Origin: Chloroflexota bacterium
GTDB taxonomy: Bacteria > Chloroflexota > Anaerolineae > UBA4142
DNA length: 11,906 bases
Direction: 5' to 3'
NCBI GenBank assembly: GCA_023381515.1
Contig: JAMCQI010000042.1
Location: 1 to 11,906, forward strand
Position numbers and translations under genes: made by a program. A model generated the notes under the pieces. It ran no database searches, was not told the origin of the DNA, and was given only the letters and a program-made list of their open reading frames with translations. Shown here in pieces: positions 1-11,689 of this stretch (position 1 is the stretch's first letter; every line of letters starts with the position of its first letter).

Positions 1-41
1 CAGGTCACGCGTCCCTGGCCGACGAGGCTCGGAGCGGCCAT
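1..41 (-). CDS. Start of a further gene of the ABC transporter operon (partial)
   Basis: Only the first 13 codons are in the window (M-A-A-P-S-L-V-G-Q-G-R-V-T). The ATG overlaps the permease stop codon as TGATG, and a strong Shine-Dalgarno sequence (AAAGGAG, plus-strand positions about 49-55) lies seven bases upstream of it. This arrangement is typical of translational coupling. In SsuABC/TauABC-type loci the gene missing here is the ATP-binding subunit, so an ABC ATPase is the natural guess. The visible residues contain no Walker motif, so the product name rests on context alone. Confidence 0.55.
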   Translation of the reverse strand, partial: MAAPSLVGQGRVT

Positions 42-865
42 CAGTTGGCTCCTTTCTTCATCCCCCACCGCTCGATCGTCGTCCGTTCCAGTCGAGCCAG
101 AATCATATAGTCCATCAGCAGCCACAGGGTACCGATGACGATCATCGCAAGAATGATCCGGTCCGTCTCATAAAAGTCGCGCGAGAGAAAGAGCAAATAA
201 CCGAGGCCAACATTGGTCGCGATCATCTCGGCGGCGAAGAGACCGCGCCACGCAAAGCCCAGCCCGACGCGCAAGCCGGTGACGATATTCGGGAGCGCAC
301 CGGGAATGACGACCTCCCAAACGATATTCAGCCGGCCGGTGCCGAGACTCTGGGCCGCCCGGAAGAGCTCCGGCGGAATGCGACTCACGCCGAGCATCGT
401 ATTGTAGACCAGGGAGAAAAAGACCGCGTTAAAGATGATGAAAATGACGGTCGCGTCGCCATAGCCGAACCAAAGCGTGGCGATCGGAATCCAGGCGATG
501 CCGGCGAGCGCGACGGTAAAGCGGAGAATTGGCGTAAAGAACCCGGCCACGTAGCGGTTGATGCCCATCGCGATCCCAAAGGGCACTCCGATCGCGATGG
601 CGACGGCCGAGCCGATGAGGACGCGCTGGAGACTCGCCCACGTATGCTGCAGCAGCGTTCCGTCGAGCGCCATGTCGACGCCGGCTTTCCACACCTGGGC
701 GACAGAAGGAAATACGCGCTCGGGGACCTGGGTGACTTTGATCCCAACCACCCAGAGGACCAGCAAGACAAGAAAAGGAGCGAGGAACCATGCAACGTTG
801 CTCGCCTGGTCGGAGAGCTTGACGCTCAATCTGGGATGGGCAGACAAGGCTTGTGCTTGCGCCAT
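41..865 (-). CDS. ABC transporter permease, SsuC/TauC-like
   Basis: Inner-membrane subunit of an ABC importer of the sulfonate/taurine/nitrate class. It should form the membrane channel, fed by the neighbouring lipoprotein and driven by an ATPase that probably lies beyond the left edge. From the chosen ATG it is 274 residues. The first membrane segment is WFLAPFLVLLVLWVVGI, and several others follow. The cytoplasmic EAA loop is clear at about residues 169-194 (FRAAQSLG, then VIPGALPNI); this loop contacts the ATPase. The frame is open up to a TTG at 913, but the ATG at 865 puts a short charged segment before the first membrane helix. Neither start has a strong ribosome-binding site, so the start is uncertain. 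The gene begins about 70 bases after the lipoprotein stop codon and ends in TGA. The family is clear; the substrate (sulfonate, taurine, nitrate, pyrimidine precursor or aromatic) is not. Confidence 0.9.
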   Translation of the reverse strand: MAQAQALSAHPRLSVKLSDQASNVAWFLAPFLVLLVLWVVGIKVTQVPERVFPSVAQVWKAGVDMALDGTLLQHTWASLQRVLIGSAVAIAIGVPFGIAMGINRYVAGFFTPILRFTVALAGIAWIPIATLWFGYGDATVIFIIFNAVFFSLVYNTMLGVSRIPPELFRAAQSLGTGRLNIVWEVVIPGALPNIVTGLRVGLGFAWRGLFAAEMIATNVGLGYLLFLSRDFYETDRIILAMIVIGTLWLLMDYMILARLERTTIERWGMKKGAN

Positions 866-933
866 TGCAAGAATCCAATCAAGGGCAGGCTTGCCGGTCG
901 ACGCGGCCGGCAAGCCGGTCCGAGCGGTATGAC

Positions 934-2184
934 TTACTTACAGGCCGCGGCGGCTTTCGTGGCGTCGAAGGTATAGCCCGGCGCGACTTGTGCGCCGTCG
1001 GGGATGGGTGCCAAATCCGTGACCAAGCCCGGTTGGGCCTGGAGCGCCTTGAGGATATAGGTCGGCTCGAAGGTTTTGCTCGGGTCGATCGTGCCGTTCA
1101 CTGCCTTGATGTCCAAGAGCAACTTTTGATCGTTGTCAAACGCCAAATAGTTGCACGCGGAAAAGCGCGGATCCAACTGCTTGACGTTGAACTGCATGGC
1201 CTGCTGGGAGGCCGTCGCGCTCAGCCCGGAGATATAGCGGGTCGCGATTTCGGCGGCCTTGTCCGGGTTCTGACGCATCCACTGATCGGCCTGGGCGCGC
1301 GCCGTCAGATACTTGACGACGGTATCCGGGTTGTTCTTGGCCCAATCTCGCAGCGCCACCTGGTAACCGATGAAGCTGATGTACCCGCCGCCGCGCATGA
1401 CCTGGAAGCTTCCCTTGACGTCGTTGAGGGCGATTTCCGGGAATGGGTCCCAGATCACGATCGCGTCCACGCCGCCGGTCTGCAAAGCCACCGGCATATC
1501 CGCGGGTGGGGTGTTGACGACCGTGACGTCGGTCGTGGCCAGCCCGACCTGCTTCATCACGCCCAGCAAATAGAGTTGGCTGATCGAACCGACCGAGGCG
1601 CCGATCTTTTTGCCTTTGAGCGTCTTGAGGTCTTTGGGGTCAATGCCGGATCCGTCGCGGGCGATCATGGCCATCGTCTCGTCGATGCCCTTCACCACGG
1701 AACTCCCGGTATAGTTCCCAACGAAAACCAGGTCCATGCCCTTGAGGATCGCGCCGATGGCGGGCACGCCCACCTGGACAAACTGAGCGTCGCCGGCCTG
1801 CAGCGCATTGAGCGCATCTACACCGGTCGGGAACGGCCCCGCCAGCTTAACGTCCAGACCTTGCTTTTCGAAAAAGCCCTGCTCGAGCGCCACCGGCAAT
1901 CCGATCTGGTCCATCGACGAGACCCAGCCGACTTTGATGGGAACGAGATTGCCGGACGGCGCGGGCGCCGTCGTCGCTTGAGCCGGGGCGGTTGTCGGCT
2001 GAGCGGGGGCGGCCGTCGGCTGCGCCGGGGCCGTCGTCGCGACCGGCGCCGCGGTCGGCTGAGCAGGAGCGGCGGTAGGCGGCGCGGCTGTCGGCGCCGG
2101 ACTCGCCGCCGGAGCGCAGGCCGCTACGGCGAGCGCGAGAACTGCGAACGAACATGCGACGAGCAGCAAACGCTTGTGCAACAT
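934..2184 (-). CDS. ABC transporter substrate-binding lipoprotein, SsuA/TauA (NMT1-like)
   Basis: Extracytoplasmic solute-binding protein that should deliver ligand to the permease encoded next. The start is the ATG at 2184, preceded by GAGGAGA at good spacing; an upstream GTG at 2232 opens the same frame but has no such site. The 416-residue product begins with a lipoprotein signal: Lys-Arg n-region, hydrophobic stretch LLLVACSFAVLALAVAAC, and a lipobox ending at Cys23. Residues about 24-79 are a low-complexity Pro/Ala/Thr linker of repeated PTAAPAQ-like units that should tether the binding domain to the membrane. The folded domain then starts with IKVGW and contains features usual for the family: VALEQGFFEKQGLDVKL, DALNALQAGDAQFV, the GKKIGASVGSISQ segment and DAIVIWDP. 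No residue visible here identifies the ligand. It ends in TAA, and the permease follows directly. Confidence 0.92.
   Translation of the reverse strand: MLHKRLLLVACSFAVLALAVAACAPAASPAPTAAPPTAAPAQPTAAPVATTAPAQPTAAPAQPTTAPAQATTAPAPSGNLVPIKVGWVSSMDQIGLPVALEQGFFEKQGLDVKLAGPFPTGVDALNALQAGDAQFVQVGVPAIGAILKGMDLVFVGNYTGSSVVKGIDETMAMIARDGSGIDPKDLKTLKGKKIGASVGSISQLYLLGVMKQVGLATTDVTVVNTPPADMPVALQTGGVDAIVIWDPFPEIALNDVKGSFQVMRGGGYISFIGYQVALRDWAKNNPDTVVKYLTARAQADQWMRQNPDKAAEIATRYISGLSATASQQAMQFNVKQLDPRFSACNYLAFDNDQKLLLDIKAVNGTIDPSKTFEPTYILKALQAQPGLVTDLAPIPDGAQVAPGYTFDATKAAAACK
1948..2115 (-). repeat. Pro/Thr/Ala-repeat linker inside the lipoprotein gene
   Basis: This stretch encodes about 56 residues made almost only of Pro, Ala, Thr and Gln after the lipid-anchor cysteine, with recurring PTAAP, AQPTAAP and ATTAP units. 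At DNA level it is an imperfect GC-rich tandem repeat with a period near 21 bases, so it could vary in length between strains by slippage. Long linkers of this style are frequent in Chloroflexota lipoproteins; I use it as a taxonomic hint only. Confidence 0.75.
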
Positions 2185-2213
2185 TACACTTCTCCTCATC
2201 GAGAGTTTTTTGG

Positions 2214-2235
2214 GGAGTGATGAATTCACCACTCC
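2214..2235. promoter_or_regulatory. 22-bp near-perfect palindrome between iclR-type gene and lipoprotein gene
   Basis: Positions 2214-2235 read as arms GGAGTG and CACTCC around a TGAATTCA core. One symmetric base pair breaks perfect symmetry, and in the minus-strand transcript that position is a G-U wobble. It lies 17 bases after the iclR-type stop codon and 30 bases before the lipoprotein start. No run of U follows it in the transcript, so it is not a standard terminator. It could be an intercistronic RNA hairpin that changes message stability, or an operator site. Confidence 0.5.
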
Positions 2236-2251
2236 ACGAGGGAGTCACGAA

Positions 2252-3088
2252 TCAACAAGCCGCGGTGGGGGTTTCCGCGCCGGCAAGCAGCGGAGCAGGA
2301 TCCTGGCCGAGCGCATGAGGTTCTTGAAATCCCAATTGGCGGGAAATCGCAGAACTCGCCTGACGTATCAGCGGCACCAAATCGTTCACGCGGGTTGCGG
2401 TCATCGAGAGCGTCCAACCGCTGATGCTCAACGCGGCCACGACCTTACCGGTGTGATCTCGAATCGGCGCAGCAATGCAGCGGATGCCGGCTTCGTTCTC
2501 CACATTGTCGACGGCGTAATCGTGAGCCCGGACCTGACGCAGCTCCCGGAAGAACAAGTCCGGCTCGACGATGGTATTCTCGGTATATGCCTTGAGACCG
2601 ACCTGGCTGGCATAGCGGCGCCATTCGCTTTCGGGGAAATCTGAGAGAAGCACCTTGCCGAGCGAGGTGGAATGGACCGGCATGCGGTACCCGATCCGCG
2701 AGGCCATACGGACCGATTGCTGCCCGTCGATCTTGTCGATGTATACGACCATGTCCTGGTCCAAGATCGCCAGGTGCACGGTCTCGCCGGTTTCCTTGGC
2801 GAGCGCGTCCAGGGCCGGCCGCGCGGCCTGGCGAACCTCGAGCCTGTCCAGAAATTTGGCAGCCAGCCATGTGACTTTGGATCCCAGGTAGTAGCGCCCT
2901 ACATCCGGTTCCTGACGGACATATCCTTGCTCGACCAGCGTCGAGAGAAATCGAAAAGTGGTGCTCTTGGCCATTCCGAGCTCATGGCTTATCACGGCCA
3001 GGTCTTTCGGAACATCGGCGCTGGCAAGATATTCCAGAACGGCAAGGCCGCGCGTGACGGACTGGTTGAGGGGAACAGAGTGTTTCAT
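2252..3088 (-). CDS. IclR-family transcriptional regulator
   Basis: DNA-binding regulator of 278 residues, a normal length for the family. An N-terminal winged helix-turn-helix spans about residues 8-65; the segment SVTRGLAVLEYLAS and the recognition region AKSTTFRFLSTLVEQGYV match the usual IclR pattern. The C-terminal effector-binding domain (about 80-250) shows family signatures such as GETVHLAILD, MPVHSTSLGKVLLS, DNVENEAGIRCIAAPIRD and VAALSISG. It is the first gene of the minus-strand operon with the ABC transporter, so it probably controls uptake of the transporter's substrate and its own expression. The ATG at 3088 is required to keep the helix-turn-helix complete. It has no good Shine-Dalgarno sequence and sits inside the first copy of a duplicated operator-like repeat, so repressor binding may directly overlap the start. 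The effector is unknown. A short Pro/Ala-rich tail of about 22 residues ends the protein. Confidence 0.93.
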   Translation of the reverse strand: MKHSVPLNQSVTRGLAVLEYLASADVPKDLAVISHELGMAKSTTFRFLSTLVEQGYVRQEPDVGRYYLGSKVTWLAAKFLDRLEVRQAARPALDALAKETGETVHLAILDQDMVVYIDKIDGQQSVRMASRIGYRMPVHSTSLGKVLLSDFPESEWRRYASQVGLKAYTENTIVEPDLFFRELRQVRAHDYAVDNVENEAGIRCIAAPIRDHTGKVVAALSISGWTLSMTATRVNDLVPLIRQASSAISRQLGFQEPHALGQDPAPLLAGAETPTAAC

Positions 3089-3118
3089 TTTTCAGAACAC
3101 TGGTCTAATATATGAAAT
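3082..3118. repeat. Operator-like repeat, copy 1 (overlaps iclR-type start codon)
   Basis: A 37-bp unit bounded by TTTCAT and ATGAAA in inverted orientation, with TTCAGAAC inside. Its first 17 bases match copy 2 at 15 of 17 positions. The regulator's start codon (3086-3088, minus strand) lies in its left arm. IclR proteins often repress their own gene, so this is a good candidate binding site; the assignment is inferred from position and symmetry. Confidence 0.55.
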
Positions 3119-3152
3119 CAGCGTATGACCAACAGTACGATTTGCATTAGGC

Positions 3153-3189
3153 GTTTCAATATTCAGAACGGTGATTCATGTATTGAAAC
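3153..3189. repeat. Operator-like repeat, copy 2
   Basis: A second 37-bp unit, shifted 71 bp from copy 1, with perfect nine-base inverted arms GTTTCAATA (3153-3161) and TATTGAAAC (3181-3189) and the same internal TTCAGAAC. It lies directly downstream of the predicted transcription start (near 3192) of the minus-strand operon, where a bound repressor would block transcription. Confidence 0.6.
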
Positions 3190-3198
3190 ACACTAGCA

Positions 3199-3226
3199 AT
3201 TATATGGCATTATTCCAGCCTGTCAA
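3199..3226 (-). promoter_or_regulatory. Sigma70-type promoter of the iclR/ABC transporter operon
   Basis: On the minus strand, -35 TTGACA (3221-3226) and -10 TATAAT (3199-3204) are both perfect hexamers, separated by 16 bp. Transcription would start near 3192, giving a leader of about 100 bases to the ATG at 3088. The promoter is followed immediately by copy 2 of the operator-like repeat. It is a strong match, although I have no experimental start site. Confidence 0.7.
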
Positions 3227-3651
3227 GTTTCATACTTTATGCGACGCTGGCGCGAGCAACGCCGAAACAAAGGAACCAGTGGGTGGTTGACCCGCTCGGC
3301 AGTGCCCTCTAATGGCACGAGCTGGACGTCGGGACCGGGGTCGGTCGCTTGCTCAGCGCGTAGCGGCTCGCCGAATTGTGAACCGATTAGTCGCCCCCTT
3401 GACAGGTCAATGCGGCACGTGATATCTTGGGCCGACTGCGACGACAAGTTTGGCGGCGGCCATTTGGGCAACAAGCCGGGCTGGGCGGTGCCGGCATCGC
3501 GGTCAGCGGTCAAGAACCGCGGCCATGCACCTCACACGCAGGCAAATGGACCCGGCTGCCGACACTGCTGTGGCGCCTGTGTCACGTTATCTTCACCAAC
3601 GGGCTCACGCCACGGTTACATACTCAGCGAGAACGAGAAAGGTCAGACTGA
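3227..3651. other. Intergenic stretch with no convincing gene
   Basis: About 425 bases in which open frames exist in several registers, but none has a family motif, a good ribosome-binding site together with sensible composition, or support from its neighbours. The candidates are Arg-, Cys- or Ser-rich, as expected of non-coding GC-rich sequence. The only signal I can name is a possible plus-strand promoter at 3399-3428. A decayed gene is possible but I cannot recognise one. Confidence 0.5.
3399..3428 (+). promoter_or_regulatory. Possible promoter upstream of the small ORF
   Basis: A perfect -35 TTGACA (3399-3404) is followed after 18 bp by TATCTT (3423-3428). The -35 box is also part of a short inverted repeat, TTGAC-AG-GTCAA. 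If active, it would transcribe the small ORF at 3652 with a leader of about 215 bases. The spacing and -10 are only moderate. Confidence 0.3.
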
Positions 3652-3903
3652 ATGCACAACCCAGGCACTTTTTCTTCGGCGGATACTCACTACTATGCAA
3701 CGCGCATCGAGTTGGGTTTAGAGCGAACAAAAAATCGCATACGTTGGCAACTGAAGAGGGCGAATCGTCCATGGTTGCAGGAGATGTTTGAGAGAATGGC
3801 ACCGATCCTGCATTCGGTCGTAATGAGCTATGTTCGGGGAATGCTGGAGAGGTACGACAAGGTCGCTAAACTAATGGTCGATCAGAACGAGCAGAAATCC
3901 TAG
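3652..3903 (+). CDS. Small hypothetical basic helical protein
   Basis: An 83-residue ORF that I do not recognise. It starts with ATG nine bases after GAAAGG, an acceptable ribosome-binding site, and ends in TAG. From about residue 18 the sequence is rich in Arg/Lys and in bulky hydrophobics and is predicted to be helical (segments RTKNRIRWQLKRANRPW and ERMAPILHSVVMSYVRGML), ending in a charged tail. It has no cysteine pair, no signal peptide and no clear membrane span. It lies alone between two minus-strand genes and converges on the deoR-type gene, with a 77-base gap between the stop codons and no clear terminator there. The amphipathic character looks more protein-like than the other ORFs in this gap. 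It may still be a chance ORF. Confidence 0.4.
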   Translation: MHNPGTFSSADTHYYATRIELGLERTKNRIRWQLKRANRPWLQEMFERMAPILHSVVMSYVRGMLERYDKVAKLMVDQNEQKS

Positions 3904-3980
3904 GCAAGTTCAGAGAATGCCAAGGTACTTGGGCGCTTGATTCGAGGCTGGGTCGTTCTGAGACAGGACTAGAACCGACA

Positions 3981-4784
3981 CTACATCGTTGCGATTTTGA
4001 CGACGGGTCCCCTCGCGTGTATGGCTTCCACTATTTCGGGCGGAGCGCCGCTGTCGGTGACCAGAAAATCCATTTTGTCGATCGGGGCCACCGGCATGAG
4101 ACACACGCGGCCCAGCTTGGTATGATCTGCAACGATGATCAATCGATGGCTGCTTGCGATCATCTTCTTCTTGATAGCCGCGACTGCCGGTACTGACGTA
4201 TTCGCCGCGGTCAGGCCGAATTCCGGAGATACGCCATCGATCCCCAGCACAGCCTTGCTCGGATGAAAATAGCCGGTGTTCTCGTTCGAAATGTCACCGA
4301 CGAGGACTTCGTTCTCCCGATAGACCATCCCCCCTACGACATAAATAACCGCGTCCGGAATCGCGAAGAGGTCAGGCAGCAGCGAAATAGAGTTCGTGAT
4401 GATCGTCAGATTGTGCTTGCCAACCAAGTGCTTGGCGACAGATTGAGTGGTGCTTCCGCCGTCAATCATGATCGTGTCCCCGTCATCAATCAACGACGCC
4501 GCAATGCCGCCAATCGCGTCCTTCTCGGCTTGATTTTCTTGAGCGCGGACGTGCAAGCTGGAGATGGACTTGACTGAATTTCCGTTGGAAGCCGCCTGAA
4601 GGATCGCTCCTCCGTGCGTCCGTCTCAATAACCCACGTGATTCCAATTCGGCAAGGTCCAATCGAATACTGGAGTCGCTCACATCAAATTCCTTCGCGAG
4701 TCGTTTGACGTAGACCCTTTTGTCTTTCTCGATCCGTCCGAATATCGATTGGAGCCGCTCCTCGCGGAAAATTGCCCGATTCAT
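3981..4784 (-). CDS. DeoR-family transcriptional repressor of the sugar locus
   Basis: Sugar-phosphate-responsive regulator of 267 residues. The N-terminal helix-turn-helix (about 8-57) carries the DeoR hallmark DSSIRLDLAELESRGLLRRTHGGA. The C-terminal sensor domain (about 85-245) has the family motifs DGDTIMIDGGSTT, VVGGMVYRENE and ADHTKLG, which form the phosphosugar pocket. It is transcribed divergently from the aldolase/PTS operon, so repression of that operon and relief by a phosphorylated sugar or aldolase intermediate is the expected role. The ATG at 4784 follows a purine-rich AAAGGGGGAAG. The predicted promoter lies about 220 bases upstream, giving an unusually long leader. The stop is TAG. 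The family is sure; the target operon is inferred from orientation and shared promoter DNA. Confidence 0.93.
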   Translation of the reverse strand: MNRAIFREERLQSIFGRIEKDKRVYVKRLAKEFDVSDSSIRLDLAELESRGLLRRTHGGAILQAASNGNSVKSISSLHVRAQENQAEKDAIGGIAASLIDDGDTIMIDGGSTTQSVAKHLVGKHNLTIITNSISLLPDLFAIPDAVIYVVGGMVYRENEVLVGDISNENTGYFHPSKAVLGIDGVSPEFGLTAANTSVPAVAAIKKKMIASSHRLIIVADHTKLGRVCLMPVAPIDKMDFLVTDSGAPPEIVEAIHARGPVVKIATM

Positions 4785-5297: not shown

Positions 5298-6149
5298 ATG
5301 TCCAACATCGGCAAAGCTATTCGCTTGAGTCAAATCCTGAATCCCACCAGTCACAACGCGATCGTTATGGCGCTGGATCACGGCGCAGTTCTCGGACCAA
5401 TTTCCGGGATTGTGGATCCAGTAAAAACGATCAGCACGCTGAATCAGGAGCGTCCGGATACGTGGTTCATTCCTATGGGCGTAGTCAAACTCGCCTACGA
5501 GTCCTTCGTCAGTGAGCATATTCCGTTTTTGCTGTCGATCGACACCTGCACGTATATGGGGCCGGAGCCAGACTTGTTTCTGCTTACCGACACCGTCGAG
5601 TCAGCCCTTCGGGTTGGCGCGAGCGGAGTAGCCATGCACGCCTTGATTGGCCCGGAGAGAACGAGTGAGATGTTGCACGGTCTCGCCAAGATATCCCAAG
5701 AGTGCGACAAGATGGGTATGCCCCTCCTCGCGATCATGTACCCTGAGGGATTCGAGAACACACACGCGGTCGAGCACGTCAAGTGGGTCGCACGGATCGG
5801 CGCAGAACTGGGTGCGGACGTCGTCAAAACCTACTACACCGGTTCCAAAGAGACCTTTGCAGAGGTGGTGGCAGCTTGCCCGGTCCCTGTAATGGTTTCA
5901 GGCGGGTCCAAGTCAAGCGACCCCATCGATTACTTGGTCTTGCTCAAGAATGTCATGGAGGCTGGCGGACGCGGTGGCGCCGTCGGCCGCAACATTTGGC
6001 AATATCGGGACCCACGGGCCATGCTGCGTGCGACCAAGAAGATAGTACACGCGGGCGCATCGGTCGACGAAGCAGCGGCGGAATTGGGGTTGACCGTAGA
6101 ACCCGACAAGGCTCCAAATTCAGACCGAAAGCAGTTGGCCTACAACTAA
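5298..6149 (+). CDS. DhnA-type class I aldolase (FbaB/LsrF family)
   Basis: Cytoplasmic (beta/alpha)8 aldolase of 283 residues that forms a Schiff base with its keto-sugar substrate. The family includes archaeal-type fructose-bisphosphate aldolase (FbaB), LsrF and the 2-amino-3,7-dideoxy-heptulosonate synthases. Visible motifs are ALDHGA with Asp27-His28, MYPEGF (Tyr148, Glu150), the Schiff-base lysine Lys177 in ADVVKTYYTG, and the phosphate-binding loops SGGSKS and GGAVGRNIWQ near the C-terminus. The ATG follows GGAGG by 11 bases. It is the first gene of the operon under a consensus promoter and the fructose-type IIA gene follows 30 bases later, so it probably cleaves the sugar phosphate made by the PTS. 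The exact substrate (fructose 1-phosphate, fructose 6-phosphate, a bisphosphate, or another ketose phosphate) cannot be read from the sequence. Confidence 0.88.
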   Translation: MSNIGKAIRLSQILNPTSHNAIVMALDHGAVLGPISGIVDPVKTISTLNQERPDTWFIPMGVVKLAYESFVSEHIPFLLSIDTCTYMGPEPDLFLLTDTVESALRVGASGVAMHALIGPERTSEMLHGLAKISQECDKMGMPLLAIMYPEGFENTHAVEHVKWVARIGAELGADVVKTYYTGSKETFAEVVAACPVPVMVSGGSKSSDPIDYLVLLKNVMEAGGRGGAVGRNIWQYRDPRAMLRATKKIVHAGASVDEAAAELGLTVEPDKAPNSDRKQLAYN

Positions 6150-6179: not shown

Positions 6180-6680
6180 ATGGCGACGCCGACCCAGGTG
6201 CTCCAGATCGCGGAGGTGATTACCCCCGGAACCATCGACTTGTCTCTCGAAGGTATTACGGACAAGGAGAGCTTGATCCGGCATTTGATCTCTCTGCTCC
6301 GCAACGCTGGCAAAATCCTCTCCGCGGACGACTTCCGCGAGGCGGTCTATTACCGCGAGAGCCTGGGGCCGACGTATATGGGGAACCATATCGCGATCCC
6401 GCACGGAAAGAGCAAAACGGTGACGAGTCCAGCAGTCGCGTTTGGAAGGTCGGCCGATGGGATTCAGTATGACACCGAACTTGGGGGCGGGCCGGCAAAA
6501 CTGATATTTCTGCTCGCCATCCCGGACCGGATGGCTGCCGAGGAGTATGTCAGGGTCCTTGCTCGATTGGCTCGTTTGCTGGTGCACCAGGAGTTCGTGA
6601 ACGCGCTGTATCAAGCTCGGAACCATGAGGACGTGGTCAGCGCGATCAGGCAAAACGAATCCCTGATCGACTCGGACTGA
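6180..6680 (+). CDS. PTS fructose-type IIA protein
   Basis: Cytoplasmic phosphocarrier of 166 residues, the usual size of a stand-alone fructose/mannitol-type IIA. It takes phosphate from HPr and passes it to IIB. The active-site motif is GNHIAIPHGKS, where His75 in the PHG triplet is the phosphorylated residue and His70 the usual second histidine. The N-terminal part (DKESLIRHLISLLRNAGKI, then FREAVYYRESLGPTYMG) is typical of the family. GAGGA at 6168-6172 lies seven bases before the ATG. The gene follows the aldolase by 30 bases and precedes IIB by 34 bases, in the order IIA-IIB-IIC. Having all three as separate genes contrasts with the fused FruA of many bacteria. It could also donate phosphate to other IIBs. 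Confidence 0.93.
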   Translation: MATPTQVLQIAEVITPGTIDLSLEGITDKESLIRHLISLLRNAGKILSADDFREAVYYRESLGPTYMGNHIAIPHGKSKTVTSPAVAFGRSADGIQYDTELGGGPAKLIFLLAIPDRMAAEEYVRVLARLARLLVHQEFVNALYQARNHEDVVSAIRQNESLIDSD

Positions 6681-6714
6681 TCGGGCGGATTTGTCCGAAG
6701 GAGGAATCTCCACG

Positions 6715-7038
6715 ATGAGAATAGTTGCGGTGACCTCGTGCGCGACCGGAATTGCCCACTCGTACATGGCCGCCGAAGCGCTCAAGCGCGCGGCCAAGGC
6801 CAGCGGGGATCAGATCAAGGTCGAAGTTCAAGGAGCGATGGGAATCGAGGGAGAACTATCCAAGGACGACATTGCCGCGGCGGACTTTGTCATCTGGGCC
6901 ATTGACGTGGGAGTGAGACGGCCGGAACGATTTCCGAAAGCGAAAGTCGCCGAGTTCAATCCCCACGAGGCGATCCGTGACCCGGGGGGCGTTATTCAGA
7001 AAGCGAAGCAAAAGATCAGACTCGCGCCGACGAGCTAG
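6715..7038 (+). CDS. PTS fructose-type IIB protein
   Basis: Cytoplasmic subunit of 107 residues that carries phosphate on a cysteine from IIA to the incoming sugar. The active site is at the N-terminus: MRIVAVTSCATGIAHSYMAAEAL, with Cys9 followed by the ATGIAHS loop; most fructose IIBs have CPTGIAHT, so Ala replaces the usual Pro. The segments KVEVQGAMGIEG and DFVIWAIDVGVRRPERF also match the family. The start at 6715 is fixed by an excellent AAGGAGGA (6698-6705) nine bases upstream; an open frame from 6691 has no such site. It ends in TAG. IIC does not follow directly but after about 270 bases. Confidence 0.93.
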   Translation: MRIVAVTSCATGIAHSYMAAEALKRAAKASGDQIKVEVQGAMGIEGELSKDDIAAADFVIWAIDVGVRRPERFPKAKVAEFNPHEAIRDPGGVIQKAKQKIRLAPTS

Positions 7039-7308
7039 AGTCGCGTCGCAGCAACCCCCGCCCGGCGGGCTCCCTCTCGCGGCGGAGCATCGTTGGGCAG
7101 TCTCGCGGACCGATGGCGACGACGCGTTGTCCACCCGCGAACAAGGAGGCAGCTATCGAAGGAATCCACCCAAGGCCCTTCACGTGTCATGGATCGGTTC
7201 TCGTCCGTGCACTGTTAGATTGCCAAACAGGCACACGCTGCGCTTTCCCCGTTTCAACGGGGGCGTGGTGTGCGACCTAGGGCATCCCAAGTCAAGGAGG
7301 ACATGAAC
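7039..7308. other. Long untranslated gap between IIB and IIC
   Basis: Roughly 270 bases separate two genes whose products work together. Overlapping open frames exist, but their Arg/Pro/Cys-rich products match nothing I know. An isolated AAGGAGG (about 7143-7149) is not followed by a start codon at the right distance. A short perfect hairpin (CCCCG, loop TTTCAA, CGGGG) lies at 7247-7262, before the IIC ribosome-binding site. I cannot assign a function. Confidence 0.4.
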
Positions 7309-8370
7309 ATGGACTGGAAAAAGCTCGGCAGTGATTTGAGGAAGCACCTGCTGACGGGTGTCTCGTACATGATTCCCTTTGTCGTGCCCGGGGGAATTCT
7401 GATCGCGCTCGGTTTTCTCTTCGGAGGGATCTACGTATTCAAAACCCCCGGACCCCTGGCAGATATCTTCAATCTGGGAAAGACGGCGTTTGGGTTGATG
7501 GTGCCGGCCCTAGCGGCGTACATCGCTTTCTCCATTTCCGATCGCCCGGGAATCGCCCCCGGCTTTGTCGCCGGGATGGTCGCTAGCAATATCGGCGCCG
7601 GCTTCATCGGCGGCATCATCGGGGGGCTACTCGCCGGCTACTTCGTGAACTGGATCAAGACGTGGCCAATGCCAGTAGCGCTCAAGCCGTTGATGCCGGT
7701 ATTGGTCATTCCGCTGGTCGGCACGGGGGTGATTGGCCTGGTCATGCTCTGGATCATCGGCCCGCCGGTCACCTGGCTGAACAACACGATGACGGCCACG
7801 CTGAATGGCATGAGCGCGGGCAGCCTGATCATCCTCGGTTTGATCCAGGGCTTTATGCTCGCGTTCGACATGGGCGGACCGGTCAACAAAGCCGCTTACG
7901 CCTTCGCACTGGCTCTCTCGGCGAACGGGAACTGGGGTCCGATGGCGGCGAACTTTGTGGCCTCGATGAGTCCTCCGATGGGTATTGCTATTGCAATCCT
8001 CATTGCCAACAACCGGTTCACCCAGTTGGAACGGAAAGGAATCAGCGGGTGCGTCGTGGGCGGTCTCTGCATGATCACAGAGTTCGCGATCCCGTACGCC
8101 GCCGGCGATCCCATCCGCGTGATCCCGTCGTTGATGGTCGGATCCGGGGTTGGCGCCGCCCTGTGCTACGTTTTTGGCCTGACGCTCTCTGCCCCGCACG
8201 GTGGATTCTTCGTGATCCTTCTGGCGAACAATCCGCTTTTGTGGATCTTCTGCTTTGCGGTTGCGAGTTTTGTCACCGCCGGCATGCTCGTCGCTCTCAA
8301 GCCCAAGCTGTCGGAGAAAGAAGCGGAAGAGATGGAGCAGGTCGAAGCGCTGCCTTCCATCACGGGCTAG
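7309..8370 (+). CDS. PTS fructose-type IIC permease
   Basis: Integral membrane sugar channel of 353 residues, a normal length for a stand-alone fructose IIC. Several hydrophobic segments are visible, beginning with VSYMIPFVVPGGILIALGFL. Family signatures are GGIIGGLLAGYF, DMGGPVNKAAYAF (about 187-199) and MITEFAIPYAAGDPIRVIPS (Glu258), which mark the sugar-binding region; Phe259 replaces the Gly of the commoner TEGAIPF. Start choice: AAGGAGG (7294-7300) is eight bases from the ATG at 7309 but only two from the ATG at 7303, so 7309 is preferred. It imports the sugar while IIB phosphorylates it. Specificity within the fructose superfamily (fructose, mannosylglycerate-like or others) is not resolved. 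It ends in TAG, followed by a terminator-like hairpin. Confidence 0.93.
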   Translation: MDWKKLGSDLRKHLLTGVSYMIPFVVPGGILIALGFLFGGIYVFKTPGPLADIFNLGKTAFGLMVPALAAYIAFSISDRPGIAPGFVAGMVASNIGAGFIGGIIGGLLAGYFVNWIKTWPMPVALKPLMPVLVIPLVGTGVIGLVMLWIIGPPVTWLNNTMTATLNGMSAGSLIILGLIQGFMLAFDMGGPVNKAAYAFALALSANGNWGPMAANFVASMSPPMGIAIAILIANNRFTQLERKGISGCVVGGLCMITEFAIPYAAGDPIRVIPSLMVGSGVGAALCYVFGLTLSAPHGGFFVILLANNPLLWIFCFAVASFVTAGMLVALKPKLSEKEAEEMEQVEALPSITG

Positions 8371-8390
8371 ACTCTCTGTTGCGAATCCAG

Positions 8391-8419
8391 GAGGCGAGTC
8401 GAATGGCTCGCCTCTTGTT
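8391..8419 (+). terminator. Terminator-like hairpin after IIC
   Basis: GAGGCGAG (8391-8398) and CTCGCCTC (8407-8414) form a perfect 8-bp GC-rich stem with an eight-base loop, followed by TTGTT. The U tract is weak, so it may only attenuate transcription and lower expression of the cupin and later genes relative to the PTS permease. Confidence 0.4.
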
Positions 8420-8514
8420 CCACTGGGCACCCTGAGCTGCGATCACACGTTCAAACCGCGTCTTCCGTTCTTCTGCGGTCTGACCCGACGATCCCGCGCC
8501 ACAAGGAGGGTTCA

Positions 8515-9435
8515 ATGACAAACGTCAAAGAGGTAATGGGGCGATTCCCATTCACTCCCGAACAGAAGAGACCAACGCACATCAAGGCTACGGAATACTT
8601 TGATTTCATCTATCCGCCCCACAGCCCCGGCTACAGCGACCTGAGCCGAATCATCGCAAGCACGGACAAGCTACTCGTCGGGACGTATCAACTGGCGCCC
8701 GGGGGGTCATTCGATCCGGCCGATATCCATCCGGGCGACGAAGCCTACTACATCCTGGACGGTATCGTTACCCAACAGAACCCCGTCAGCGGTCAGTTCG
8801 TCCAGGCCAAGAAAGGCGAAGCGCTCTGGCTCCCCATCGCCTCCTGGCACAAGGCATTCAACTTTGAAGACGAGATCATGCGCATCTTGTTCTTCATCGC
8901 GCCGCGGCCGTGGGACGAACACATCCCTCCGCCCAATTTCCCACAGGGCGATGACATGAAGATGTACAAAGGGAAGCACAACGAGCGGCTTCCCAAAGCG
9001 GGAACCATCCCGAGCGTAGCCCGTCTGGGGACCACGGACGAGATCGGCCACTGGCCCATCGAAGGCGCAGAAGGCCGGCAAGGACCGCGTCCATTTTACC
9101 GCATCACCGAAGAGCAAAAGCTCATCAACGTCAGCGGTTGGAGAAACCCCATGCTCGTCAAGTTCTTCGTCAGCAACGATCTGCTCCATATGGGCGAATT
9201 CAGCCTTCCCGCCGGCGGCACCGGGCCTCGCCTTTCCGAGCCGGATACTCATCGCGGCGATTGCGTGCTTTTTGTCGTCAGGGGGTCCGTGACAGTCAAT
9301 CTGCCGGACACGGAAGAAGCGTTTATCATACCCGCGGAAGACGCGATGTTCATCCCCGAAGGCGTGCGATACCAGCTCATCAACTTTGAAGCGCATGCTG
9401 TCAAGGCAATCTTTTGTATCGCTCCCGGACTGTGA
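8515..9435 (+). CDS. Double-cupin protein, possible sugar isomerase or metal enzyme
   Basis: Cytoplasmic protein of 306 residues with two beta-barrel cupin domains and no signal peptide. Domain 1 (about 50-130) has a fair metal site: IHPGDE gives His72 and Glu76, and LPIASWHKAFN gives His112. Domain 2 (about 215-305) repeats the architecture (THRGDCVLFVVRG, then IPEGVRYQLINF) but Cys250 replaces the Glu and Tyr286 the second His, so it probably binds no metal. AAGGAGG (8503-8509) precedes the ATG by five bases. The place inside a PTS/aldolase operon suggests a step on a sugar or sugar phosphate, such as isomerisation or epimerisation, as seen in other cupin isomerases; this is inference from context. 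It could instead be a small-molecule sensor or dioxygenase. I do not recognise a named family. Confidence 0.8.
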   Translation: MTNVKEVMGRFPFTPEQKRPTHIKATEYFDFIYPPHSPGYSDLSRIIASTDKLLVGTYQLAPGGSFDPADIHPGDEAYYILDGIVTQQNPVSGQFVQAKKGEALWLPIASWHKAFNFEDEIMRILFFIAPRPWDEHIPPPNFPQGDDMKMYKGKHNERLPKAGTIPSVARLGTTDEIGHWPIEGAEGRQGPRPFYRITEEQKLINVSGWRNPMLVKFFVSNDLLHMGEFSLPAGGTGPRLSEPDTHRGDCVLFVVRGSVTVNLPDTEEAFIIPAEDAMFIPEGVRYQLINFEAHAVKAIFCIAPGL

Positions 9436-9569
9436 TGCGCGACTCGGGCCGCGAGACGCGGCGCCGAAACGGACAGGGCGCATGGTCGCCGAGGGGGATG
9501 AGGGGAAAGCGCGCCGGGGTCGGCCACGGACGCCGTGCGCCCGAGACAAGCCAGCGGAGATAATATGTG

Positions 9570-9842
9570 ATGCGTTTCCAGACAACGGTTCGCCATAGAG
9601 AGGGTCTGCATGCGAGGCCGGCGGTCTTGTTCGTCAACAAGGCAAGCAGCTTCAAGTCCAGCGTTCAGGTGCGAAACGTAACCGCGCCGAGCGCGTGGGT
9701 CGACGCCAAAAGCATCCTAAATGTGCTGACGCTCGGGGTCGAGCCCAACCATGCCATCGAAGTGCAAGTCGACGGGGAGGACGAGGCTCAAGCCGCCGCT
9801 GCCATCGAAGCGCTGGTCGAGTCTGATTTCGCGTCAGGGTAA
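9570..9842 (+). CDS. ptsH: HPr phosphocarrier protein
   Basis: Small cytoplasmic protein of 90 residues that takes phosphate from Enzyme I and gives it to IIA. The active-site motif REGLHARPA places the phosphorylated His at residue 14 (His15 in classical numbering). KSILNVLTLG holds Ser48, which aligns with Ser46, the target of HPr kinase in Firmicutes. The ATG at 9570 is nine bases after GGAGA; a GTG directly before it (9567) is an alternative. It lies between the cupin and Enzyme I genes, as expected of a pts cluster, with about 90 bases before Enzyme I. It ends in TAA. It may also serve a DhaM subunit if one is encoded downstream. Confidence 0.93.
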   Translation: MRFQTTVRHREGLHARPAVLFVNKASSFKSSVQVRNVTAPSAWVDAKSILNVLTLGVEPNHAIEVQVDGEDEAQAAAAIEALVESDFASG

Positions 9843-9931: not shown

Positions 9932-10690
9932 ATGCAAACTGTCGTGGGTAAGCCGGCTTCGCCAGGTATCGCGATCGGGCCGAGTTTCGTCTTCGCCGGC
10001 CAAGAGCTCGTCCCGCCTCGGTTCACCGTATCCGAGACGGAATTGGAATTTGCCCGGCTGGAACAGGCGCTGGCGAAAGCGGTAGCTGAGGTGGAAGCGC
10101 TGCGGCGGGTGGCGGACGAACGCGTCGGAGCAGAAGAGGCCGCGATATTCGATGCCCACGCGCTCATCATTCAAGACCCGGTGCTGCTCAAGGACATTCG
10201 CCGTGTGATCGAGGTCCAGCATGTGAACGCAGAGGCCGCGTGGGCCGACACGATCGAGGCGAACGCCGCGAAACTGGATGCCCTCGGCAGCGAATACCTA
10301 AGGGCGCGTGCGGCGGACATCCGCGACGTCGGGCGCCGGATCCTCCGCATCCTGCTCGGCGTGGACGTGCAAGACCTGTCAGAAATGGCGGCTCCCGGCA
10401 TCGTCGTGGCAAGAGACCTGACGCCGTCGGATACGGTCAACTTGACCCGGTCGCTTGTTCTCGGATTTTGCACTGCGGAAGGCGGTCCCACCTCCCATAC
10501 CGCTATCCTTGCCAAGGCGTTAGGATTGCCTGCTGTCGTCGGCGCCGGACAACCAGTCCTCGTACTCCCCAGCGGGACTCGCCTTATCGTCGACGGGAGC
10601 CAGGGTATCGTGGTGATGGATCCGACGGAGGCCGCGCTGGAGGATTCCCGAGTACGGCGCGAAGAGATGTTGTACCGCTCGGAACGGTAG
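9932..10690 (+). CDS. ptsI: PTS Enzyme I, N-terminal half (phosphohistidine and HPr-binding domains), ends at in-frame TAG
   Basis: First 252 residues of PEP-protein phosphotransferase, the general PTS enzyme that moves phosphate from PEP to HPr. This part holds the helical HPr-binding domain (about 30-145) and the swivelling phosphohistidine domain. The motif CTAEGGPTSHTAILAKALGLPAVVG carries His189, the same number as in E. coli EI. The start is taken at 9932 because MQTVVGKPASPGIAIG is the conserved N-terminus; a weak AAGG precedes it. The frame is ended by TAG at 10688-10690, right where the EIN part gives way to the PEP-binding part. The C-terminal half continues in the same frame (10715-11689). 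Alone, this half could exchange phosphate with HPr but could not use PEP. Premature stop, split protein or sequencing error are all open. Confidence 0.88.
   Translation: MQTVVGKPASPGIAIGPSFVFAGQELVPPRFTVSETELEFARLEQALAKAVAEVEALRRVADERVGAEEAAIFDAHALIIQDPVLLKDIRRVIEVQHVNAEAAWADTIEANAAKLDALGSEYLRARAADIRDVGRRILRILLGVDVQDLSEMAAPGIVVARDLTPSDTVNLTRSLVLGFCTAEGGPTSHTAILAKALGLPAVVGAGQPVLVLPSGTRLIVDGSQGIVVMDPTEAALEDSRVRREEMLYRSER
10688..10690 (+). other. In-frame amber codon interrupting Enzyme I
   Basis: TAG at codon 253 of an otherwise complete 585-codon Enzyme I frame. The reading frame is the same on both sides, so one base substitution accounts for it, for example from CAG, GAG, AAG, TGG or TAC. 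The IIB, IIC and deoR-type genes here end normally in TAG, which argues against general reassignment of this codon. Confidence 0.9.
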
Positions 10691-10714
10691 CGATCGGACG
10701 CGCTCGAACCGGCC

Positions 10715-11689
10715 GTGACACGGGACGGACATCGCGTCGAGATCGCCGCCAACGTCGGCCAAGTCGACGAGGCTGCGCGCGCGTTGGAATACGGCGCCGA
10801 AGGGATCGGGTTGCTGCGGACCGAATTCCTATATCTCGGACGCAAGTCCCCGCCATGCGAAGACGAACAGTTGGGAGCATTCAACGCCATCCTCGAGATC
10901 ATGAATGAGCGACCCGTCGTCGTACGGACGCTTGACATCGGCGGAGACAAGCCGCCCTCTTATCTCGATTTGGGCAAAGAGAACAATCCGTTCCTCGGCT
11001 GGCGTGCGATCCGATTCTGCCTCGATCAGCCCGAATTCTTCAAGATCCAACTGCGCGCGCTTGTCCAATCCAGCCCGGGACACGACCTGAGAATCATGTT
11101 CCCGATGATCGCGACGCTGGAAGAGGTCCGCCGAGCTAAGGCGCTCGTAGTTCAAGCACGGGAGGAAATCCAGGCGGCGGGACATTCCGCGGCAGCGCGG
11201 ATTCAGATCGGAATCATGATCGAGGTTCCTTCCGCCGCGATCCTCGCCGACCGGCTGGCCCGGGAAGTTGATTTCTTCAGTGTCGGGACGAACGACCTCA
11301 CCCAGTACACCCTGGCGGCGGAACGCACGAACGAACGCGTCTCACACCTGGGGGACGCCTGCCATCCAGCCGTGCTGCGCCAGATCCGATTTGTCATCGA
11401 AGAAGGGCACCGGGCCGGAATCTGGGTTGGCGTCTGCGGCGAGCTCGCCGGCGACCCGGATGCCATCCCAATCCTCCTGGGCTTGGGACTGGACGAATTC
11501 AGCATGGCACCGCCAAGCATCCCCAGCGCCAAAGCCTTGATTCGATCTTATCGGTTTTCGGATGCGCAGGTGCTGGCGCGGCAGGTCTTGGACCTGGACA
11601 CGGCAATTCAGGTCCGCGAGCGCTCACGGAGCTTTCGATGCGTTGCGGATAGGAACCTTGGCGAGTGCAGAGAGGCGAAGAATGCCTAA
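10715..11689 (+). CDS. ptsI: PTS Enzyme I, C-terminal half (PEP-binding and dimerisation domain)
   Basis: The PEP-utilising TIM-barrel part of Enzyme I, 324 residues from the GTG at 10715, in the same frame as the N-terminal half and eight codons after its TAG. Counting through the stop as residue 253, the catalytic residues fall exactly on E. coli numbers: Arg296 (GLLRTEF), Arg332 (VVRTLDIGGDK), Arg358 (GWRAIR), Glu431 (IEVPSAA), Asn454-Asp455 (GTNDLTQYT), Arg465 and Cys502 (VCGELAGD). No insertion, deletion or second stop is seen, so it has not decayed. The GTG has no ribosome-binding site, so separate translation would need reinitiation or coupling at the TAG. The C-terminus runs about 20 Arg-rich residues past the usual end and overlaps the DhaK-type start by eight bases. 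It may be read only by stop readthrough, or be inactive. Confidence 0.85.
   Translation: MTRDGHRVEIAANVGQVDEAARALEYGAEGIGLLRTEFLYLGRKSPPCEDEQLGAFNAILEIMNERPVVVRTLDIGGDKPPSYLDLGKENNPFLGWRAIRFCLDQPEFFKIQLRALVQSSPGHDLRIMFPMIATLEEVRRAKALVVQAREEIQAAGHSAAARIQIGIMIEVPSAAILADRLAREVDFFSVGTNDLTQYTLAAERTNERVSHLGDACHPAVLRQIRFVIEEGHRAGIWVGVCGELAGDPDAIPILLGLGLDEFSMAPPSIPSAKALIRSYRFSDAQVLARQVLDLDTAIQVRERSRSFRCVADRNLGECREAKNA

Follow-up and report, generated by a model that had tools for sequence, protein, structure and literature searches.

The window, i.e., the whole stretch of DNA that was analysed, is a contig of 11,906 bases. Its forward strand carries a PTS cluster encoding an aldolase, fructose-type IIA, IIB and IIC, a cupin protein, HPr, Enzyme I (EI) and the start of DhaK, and a DeoR regulator is encoded upstream of the cluster in divergent orientation (Table 1). 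Apart from the EI gene, the genes of the PTS cluster have open frames with their domains present. On the reverse strand (41–3088), an IclR regulator is encoded next to an ABC permease and an NMT1/SsuA-like substrate-binding protein, and all three are unrelated to the PTS cluster. A gap of ~0.9 kb (3089–3980) separates the IclR and DeoR genes and contains two forward-strand ORFs (3652–3903 and 3239–3721); neither had a Pfam match, and the former had no NCBIfam match either. A search of the window against Rfam returned no match at gathering scores.

Table 1 Features of the PTS cluster and its divergent regulator, with the supporting profile matches or observations.
Feature	Position	Strand	Evidence
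DeoR-type regulator, TAG-terminated	3981..4784	-	PF00455, PF08220; stop codon
DeoC/LacD-type aldolase, first gene of the PTS cluster	5298..6149	+	PF01791 117.2 bits
Fructose-type IIA/IIB/IIC span	6180..8370	+	
Fructose-type IIA	6180-6680	+	PF00359; TIGR00848
Fructose-type IIB	within 6691-7038	+	PF02302
Fructose-type IIC	7270-8370	+	PF02378; TIGR01427
Cupin protein of the PTS cluster	8515..9435	+	PF07883 55.4 bits
HPr, phosphate acceptor of Enzyme I	9567..9842	+	PF00381 94.9 bits
N-terminal half of Enzyme I (EIN, 252 aa), phosphorylation site His189, TAG-terminated	9932..10690	+	PF05524 106.3 bits, PF00391 77.4 bits, both above cut-off
In-frame TAG, codon 253, linker helix	10688..10690	+	sense codon in 146/146 relatives; model helix 233-256
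C-terminal half of Enzyme I (EIC, PEP-binding and dimerization domain, 324 aa), open from GTG codon 262	10715..11689	+	PF02896 385.3 bits
DhaK start, overlapping the Enzyme I end, truncated by the contig end	11682..11906	+	TIGR02363 68 bits over 75 residues

A syntenic cluster was detected in a single genome (G206) of the 386 searched with the cupin protein, where DhaK, DeoR, aldolase, IIA, IIB, IIC and cupin show 48–66% identity. The EI gene of that cluster is uninterrupted (46% identity) and located ~1.9 kb 3' of the cupin gene, and no HPr match was found at an E-value of 1e-4 in the 17 kb examined.

The frame at 9932–11689 encodes EI from end to end in 586 codons, and its only stops are the TAG at codon 253 and the TAA at codon 586, which confirmed the initial annotation of two halves in one frame with a single TAG between them. 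When read through, the protein scored 618.1 bits against the EI model TIGR01417 (cut-off 341.7), and the EIC half alone scored 397.2 bits. The components of this family are all present, i.e., PF05524, PF00391 with His189, and PF02896 with the catalytic Arg, Glu, Asn, Asp and Cys, and the one uninterrupted frame is broken by the TAG. The nine catalytic residues named in the initial annotation (His189, Arg296, Arg332, Arg358, Glu431, Asn454, Asp455, Arg465 and Cys502) were all found at the codon numbers given there, with the stop counted as one position. Alignment to E. coli EI (2hwg) paired query residues 6–558 with chain residues 4–558, with the same numbering over most of the length, and nearly the full length of the read-through protein can be aligned with solved EI structures. 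No second lesion was detected in the 586 codons, and with domains and active-site residues kept, the view that neither half has decayed holds. The longest run in the 124-nt stretch at the stop is 3, and the window contains no ambiguous bases. The gene shares its three domains, active-site residues, length, adjoining HPr and fold with PtsI (TIGR01417; E. coli 2hwg, S. carnosus 2hro, S. aureus 2wqd), whereas its PtsI relatives have a sense codon in place of the in-frame TAG.

In publications on E. coli EI, EIN is given as residues 1–249 and EIC as 261–575 with a helical linker in between (PMC7385036, PMC8295985), and the connecting helix as 231–260 (PMC5537066). When the read-through protein was modelled (mean pLDDT 81.7), codon 253 fell within a predicted helix, and the assignment of the stop to the interdomain linker agrees with the model and with the published limits. 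The ends of the laboratory EIN and EIC are almost equal to those of the two halves in the contig gene, although the former are engineered constructs and the EIC half of the contig gene is a putative product. A random nonsense mutation had also been thought to land rarely at this boundary. Among the 144 stop-prone codons (this stop, or codons one substitution away from a stop), 6 (~4%) fall within 250–260 and 13 (~9%) within 231–260; the coincidence is modest, counted after the fact and before allowing for the choice of the site by its position.

Relatives were compared to determine whether the stop is shared. Among 5.8 billion proteins, both halves are singletons (one member each, from one contig of 11,906 bases), and the best 120 full-length relatives listed are single proteins with 58–64% identity. 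The conservation of the stop among orthologues, raised in the initial annotation, was not borne out by the alignment, as codon 253 is a sense codon in each of the 146 retrieved relatives (proteins of 540–700 aa; identities up to ~64%), namely Glu (n = 101), Asp (n = 28) or Ala (n = 17), and none of them has an indel at 225–265. With 65 genome loci added (211 in all), this column also has Trp (n = 54), and Val, Leu and a gap once each. Of 81 alignments over 80 genome loci, four contain a stop, every one at the natural C-terminus.

Two partly overlapping genome surveys were also inspected, with the best 150 rows of each counted by eye. EI was detected in 174 of 400 Chloroflexota genomes, and the best 150 rows are all open over at least 556 aa, with stops flagged in 18 of them, all within the last 10 codons. 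The second survey covered 396 genomes of the class of G001 and gave a match in 185; open frames shorter than 550 aa were found in 7 of its best 150 rows, five of them at contig ends (G420, G657, G509, G544 and G505) and two interior (G428 and G637). Stops were flagged in 11 further rows besides G637, within the last 11 codons. A conserved split was sought at the 80 genome loci, in the best 150 rows of either survey and among short proteins, and was rejected; the two interior cases are probable assembly faults. Judged from these comparisons, the stop appears to be private to the contig. As the nearest relatives are only ~64% identical, a split that had become fixed in the species would give the same picture, and the comparison is therefore silent on the fixation of the stop in this species.

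The two interior cases resemble the contig gene in that their interdomain linker is interrupted while both halves can still be read. In G428, the stop is located within a 4.7-Mb contig in a 4.5-kb stretch that contains 12 N, and the typical linker motif is found in another frame, as expected from two compensating indels. In G637, the linker is 41 nt shorter than in its relative G465 and out of frame; its sister genome G725 (91% to the same query) runs into a long poly-C at the same spot, where the contig ends, and G465 is whole. On account of the N's, the frame-shifted motif, the 41-nt loss and the poly-C, natural linker splits were discounted in both, and the two interruptions probably reflect assembly trouble in GC-rich linker DNA. 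The EI linker DNA of this clade is very GC-rich (L114 of G637, L130 of G725 and L131 of G465), and GC-rich EI linkers may be especially prone to false gene splits. These two genes have indel-type lesions, whereas the contig gene has a single clean in-frame stop codon; given that no run exceeds 3 and no ambiguous base occurs at the stop, its lesion is not of the same kind. They are nevertheless the best circumstantial sign that EI linkers get interrupted.

The age of the lesion was evaluated from the divergence of the linker and of the two domains. The linker has the same length as in the 146 relatives, and its identity to relatives is ordinary (mean 24%, median 28%; rank 34 from the lowest of 156). 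Three departures were found at seven hand-picked conserved linker positions, a level reached or exceeded by 4 of the 146 relatives. Departures at conserved columns are likewise above the relatives' means, with 11 of 91 in EIN against a mean of 3.6 and 13 of 183 in EIC against a mean of 6.1, and 7 of the 146 relatives are as high or higher in each. Because the contig gene has more departures than most relatives in the two domains as well, we read its linker departures as general distance, and a relaxed linker was rejected as a sign of an old split. Judged from the sequence, neither a long-standing split nor decay is marked in the gene.

A naturally split EI, in which EIN ends at the TAG and EIC is produced by coupled re-initiation at GTG 10715, is an improbable explanation. 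The two products would act in trans: EIC dimers would bind PEP and phosphorylate free EIN at His189. The intact state of both halves, their match to the ends of the laboratory EIN and EIC, and the position of the GTG only 24 nt 3' of the stop are consistent with such an arrangement. Fomenkov et al. 1998 reportedly described complementation between the two E. coli EI domains, and by analogy trans action would be conceivable here. However, the stop is shared by no relative examined, and an old split should drift, whereas the linker is unchanged in length and ordinary in identity. The GTG also lacks a good Shine-Dalgarno site, with a match of only 3 nt. Among the eight other cluster genes, six have Shine-Dalgarno matches of 4–6 nt, IIB has 3 nt (scored at a non-start position) and IIC has none at the start used. 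Counted over the window, two starts other than the GTG lack any match. Trans action may moreover be weak, given that isolated EIN-alpha/beta was found to bind EIC only with PEP present (PMC5537066). No natural EI split was noticed in the accessible parts of the literature on EI domains and ptsI premature stops (including PMC5537066, PMC2405797, PMC7385036 and PMC8295985).

Read-through of the TAG by a near-cognate or suppressor tRNA, which would yield some full-length EI with an exposed linker that tolerates any inserted residue, is a doubtful alternative that we consider quite improbable. In its favour, the two halves are in one frame, the linker length and flanking residues are kept, and the stop is located in a poorly conserved helix. 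However, TAG is the terminator of three genes in the window (DeoR, IIB and IIC), and reading past it would add 3, 59 and 354 residues, respectively. The last of these frames is open past the IIC stop through the gap at 8371–8514 and the cupin gene, and was taken as chance because an AGGAGG site precedes the cupin start. No tRNA gene was found in the window, and the predicted RNA folds of three stretches around or after the stop were no better than those of shuffled sequences. General TAG suppression is unlikely here, and weak local read-through may occur, though nothing specific points to it.

That the gene is dead and drifting as an ageing pseudogene is very unlikely: the in-frame stop hits the sole EI of the contig and the departures in both domains exceed the relatives' means, but the 586 codons contain no second lesion, the nine active-site residues are kept, the rest of the cluster is open with its domains, and more distant intact genes outside the 146 depart more in both domains (L002–L005, 13–26 in EIN and 22–32 in EIC), although L001 departs less (1 and 3).

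Most probably, the locus carries an ordinary ptsI, otherwise intact, from an uncultured Chloroflexota-like bacterium, and the nonsense codon in its linker is private and very young. This codon arose either as a recent substitution in the sampled strain or as an error in the metagenome consensus; we rate these two origins about equally likely, and we infer both the taxon and the young age of the stop. We favour this reading because no such stop is found in the relatives examined, both halves are intact, TAG is a normal terminator nearby, the EIC start has a Shine-Dalgarno match of only 3 nt, the linker identity is ordinary and there is no second lesion. Counted against it are the location of the stop inside the 11-residue linker (the 6 of 144, or 4%, given above), the absence of decay in either half, the two other genomes interrupted at the linker, even if probably by assembly, and the three linker departures, which place the contig gene among the most departed. 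A recent mutation and a base-calling error were both among the options of the initial annotation and are now the best reading. The weight it gave to amber read-through or a natural split is not sustained, as the stop occurs in no relative examined, the two apparent linker splits elsewhere look like assembly faults, TAG ends three other genes in the window and EIC lacks a good ribosome site.

If the TAG stems from a consensus error, the strain would have a normal EI. If it is real, a folded EIN (residues 1–252) would be made that, by comparison with the E. coli domains, should be able to bind HPr and would be without the PEP site, and EIC would presumably be produced only via weak re-initiation at the GTG. 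The EI of the operon would then be lost or strongly reduced, perhaps with residual function, unless another EI serves, and the consequence depends on other EI genes in the genome. The 185 matching genomes of the second survey have one EI match in 154 cases and more than one in 31 (counted by eye), these copy numbers being lower bounds given that up to five candidates were scored per genome and that genomes may be incomplete.

Were the split to be true, the PTS would run on a two-piece EI made from one message by coupled re-initiation, in which the phospho-histidine protein that binds HPr is separated from the PEP-binding dimer at the boundary of the laboratory constructs. It would provide a natural test of whether PEP binding can be coupled to HPr phosphorylation only through a covalent EI linker. 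Under the favoured reading of a private, young stop, the locus is instead a caution that, in metagenome contigs, a stop located at a domain boundary can mimic an elegant natural split, here indicated as private by the relatives, and the two similar-looking cases elsewhere look like assembly faults.

Short EI-N proteins were also profiled. In 119 aligned sequences, homology ends near 232–262 more often than even spacing predicts (judged by eye), and this excess was used as evidence neither way. Among those inspected (12 and 18) were sequences cut at contig ends, with out-of-frame tails or with internal deletions. Outside the contig, a family of 243-aa stand-alone EIN-like proteins (P0230, P0231, P0232, P0237, P0238 and P0240) ends near the domain boundary. 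It has no PEP-binding domain, as determined for P0230 and P0238, and no relative in viral contigs, and a search for its host matched none of the 398 genomes of one phylum at an E-value of 1e-45, a search run without a positive control. The SHSAILAK histidine motif is kept in this family, of which P0238 represents 117 member sequences.
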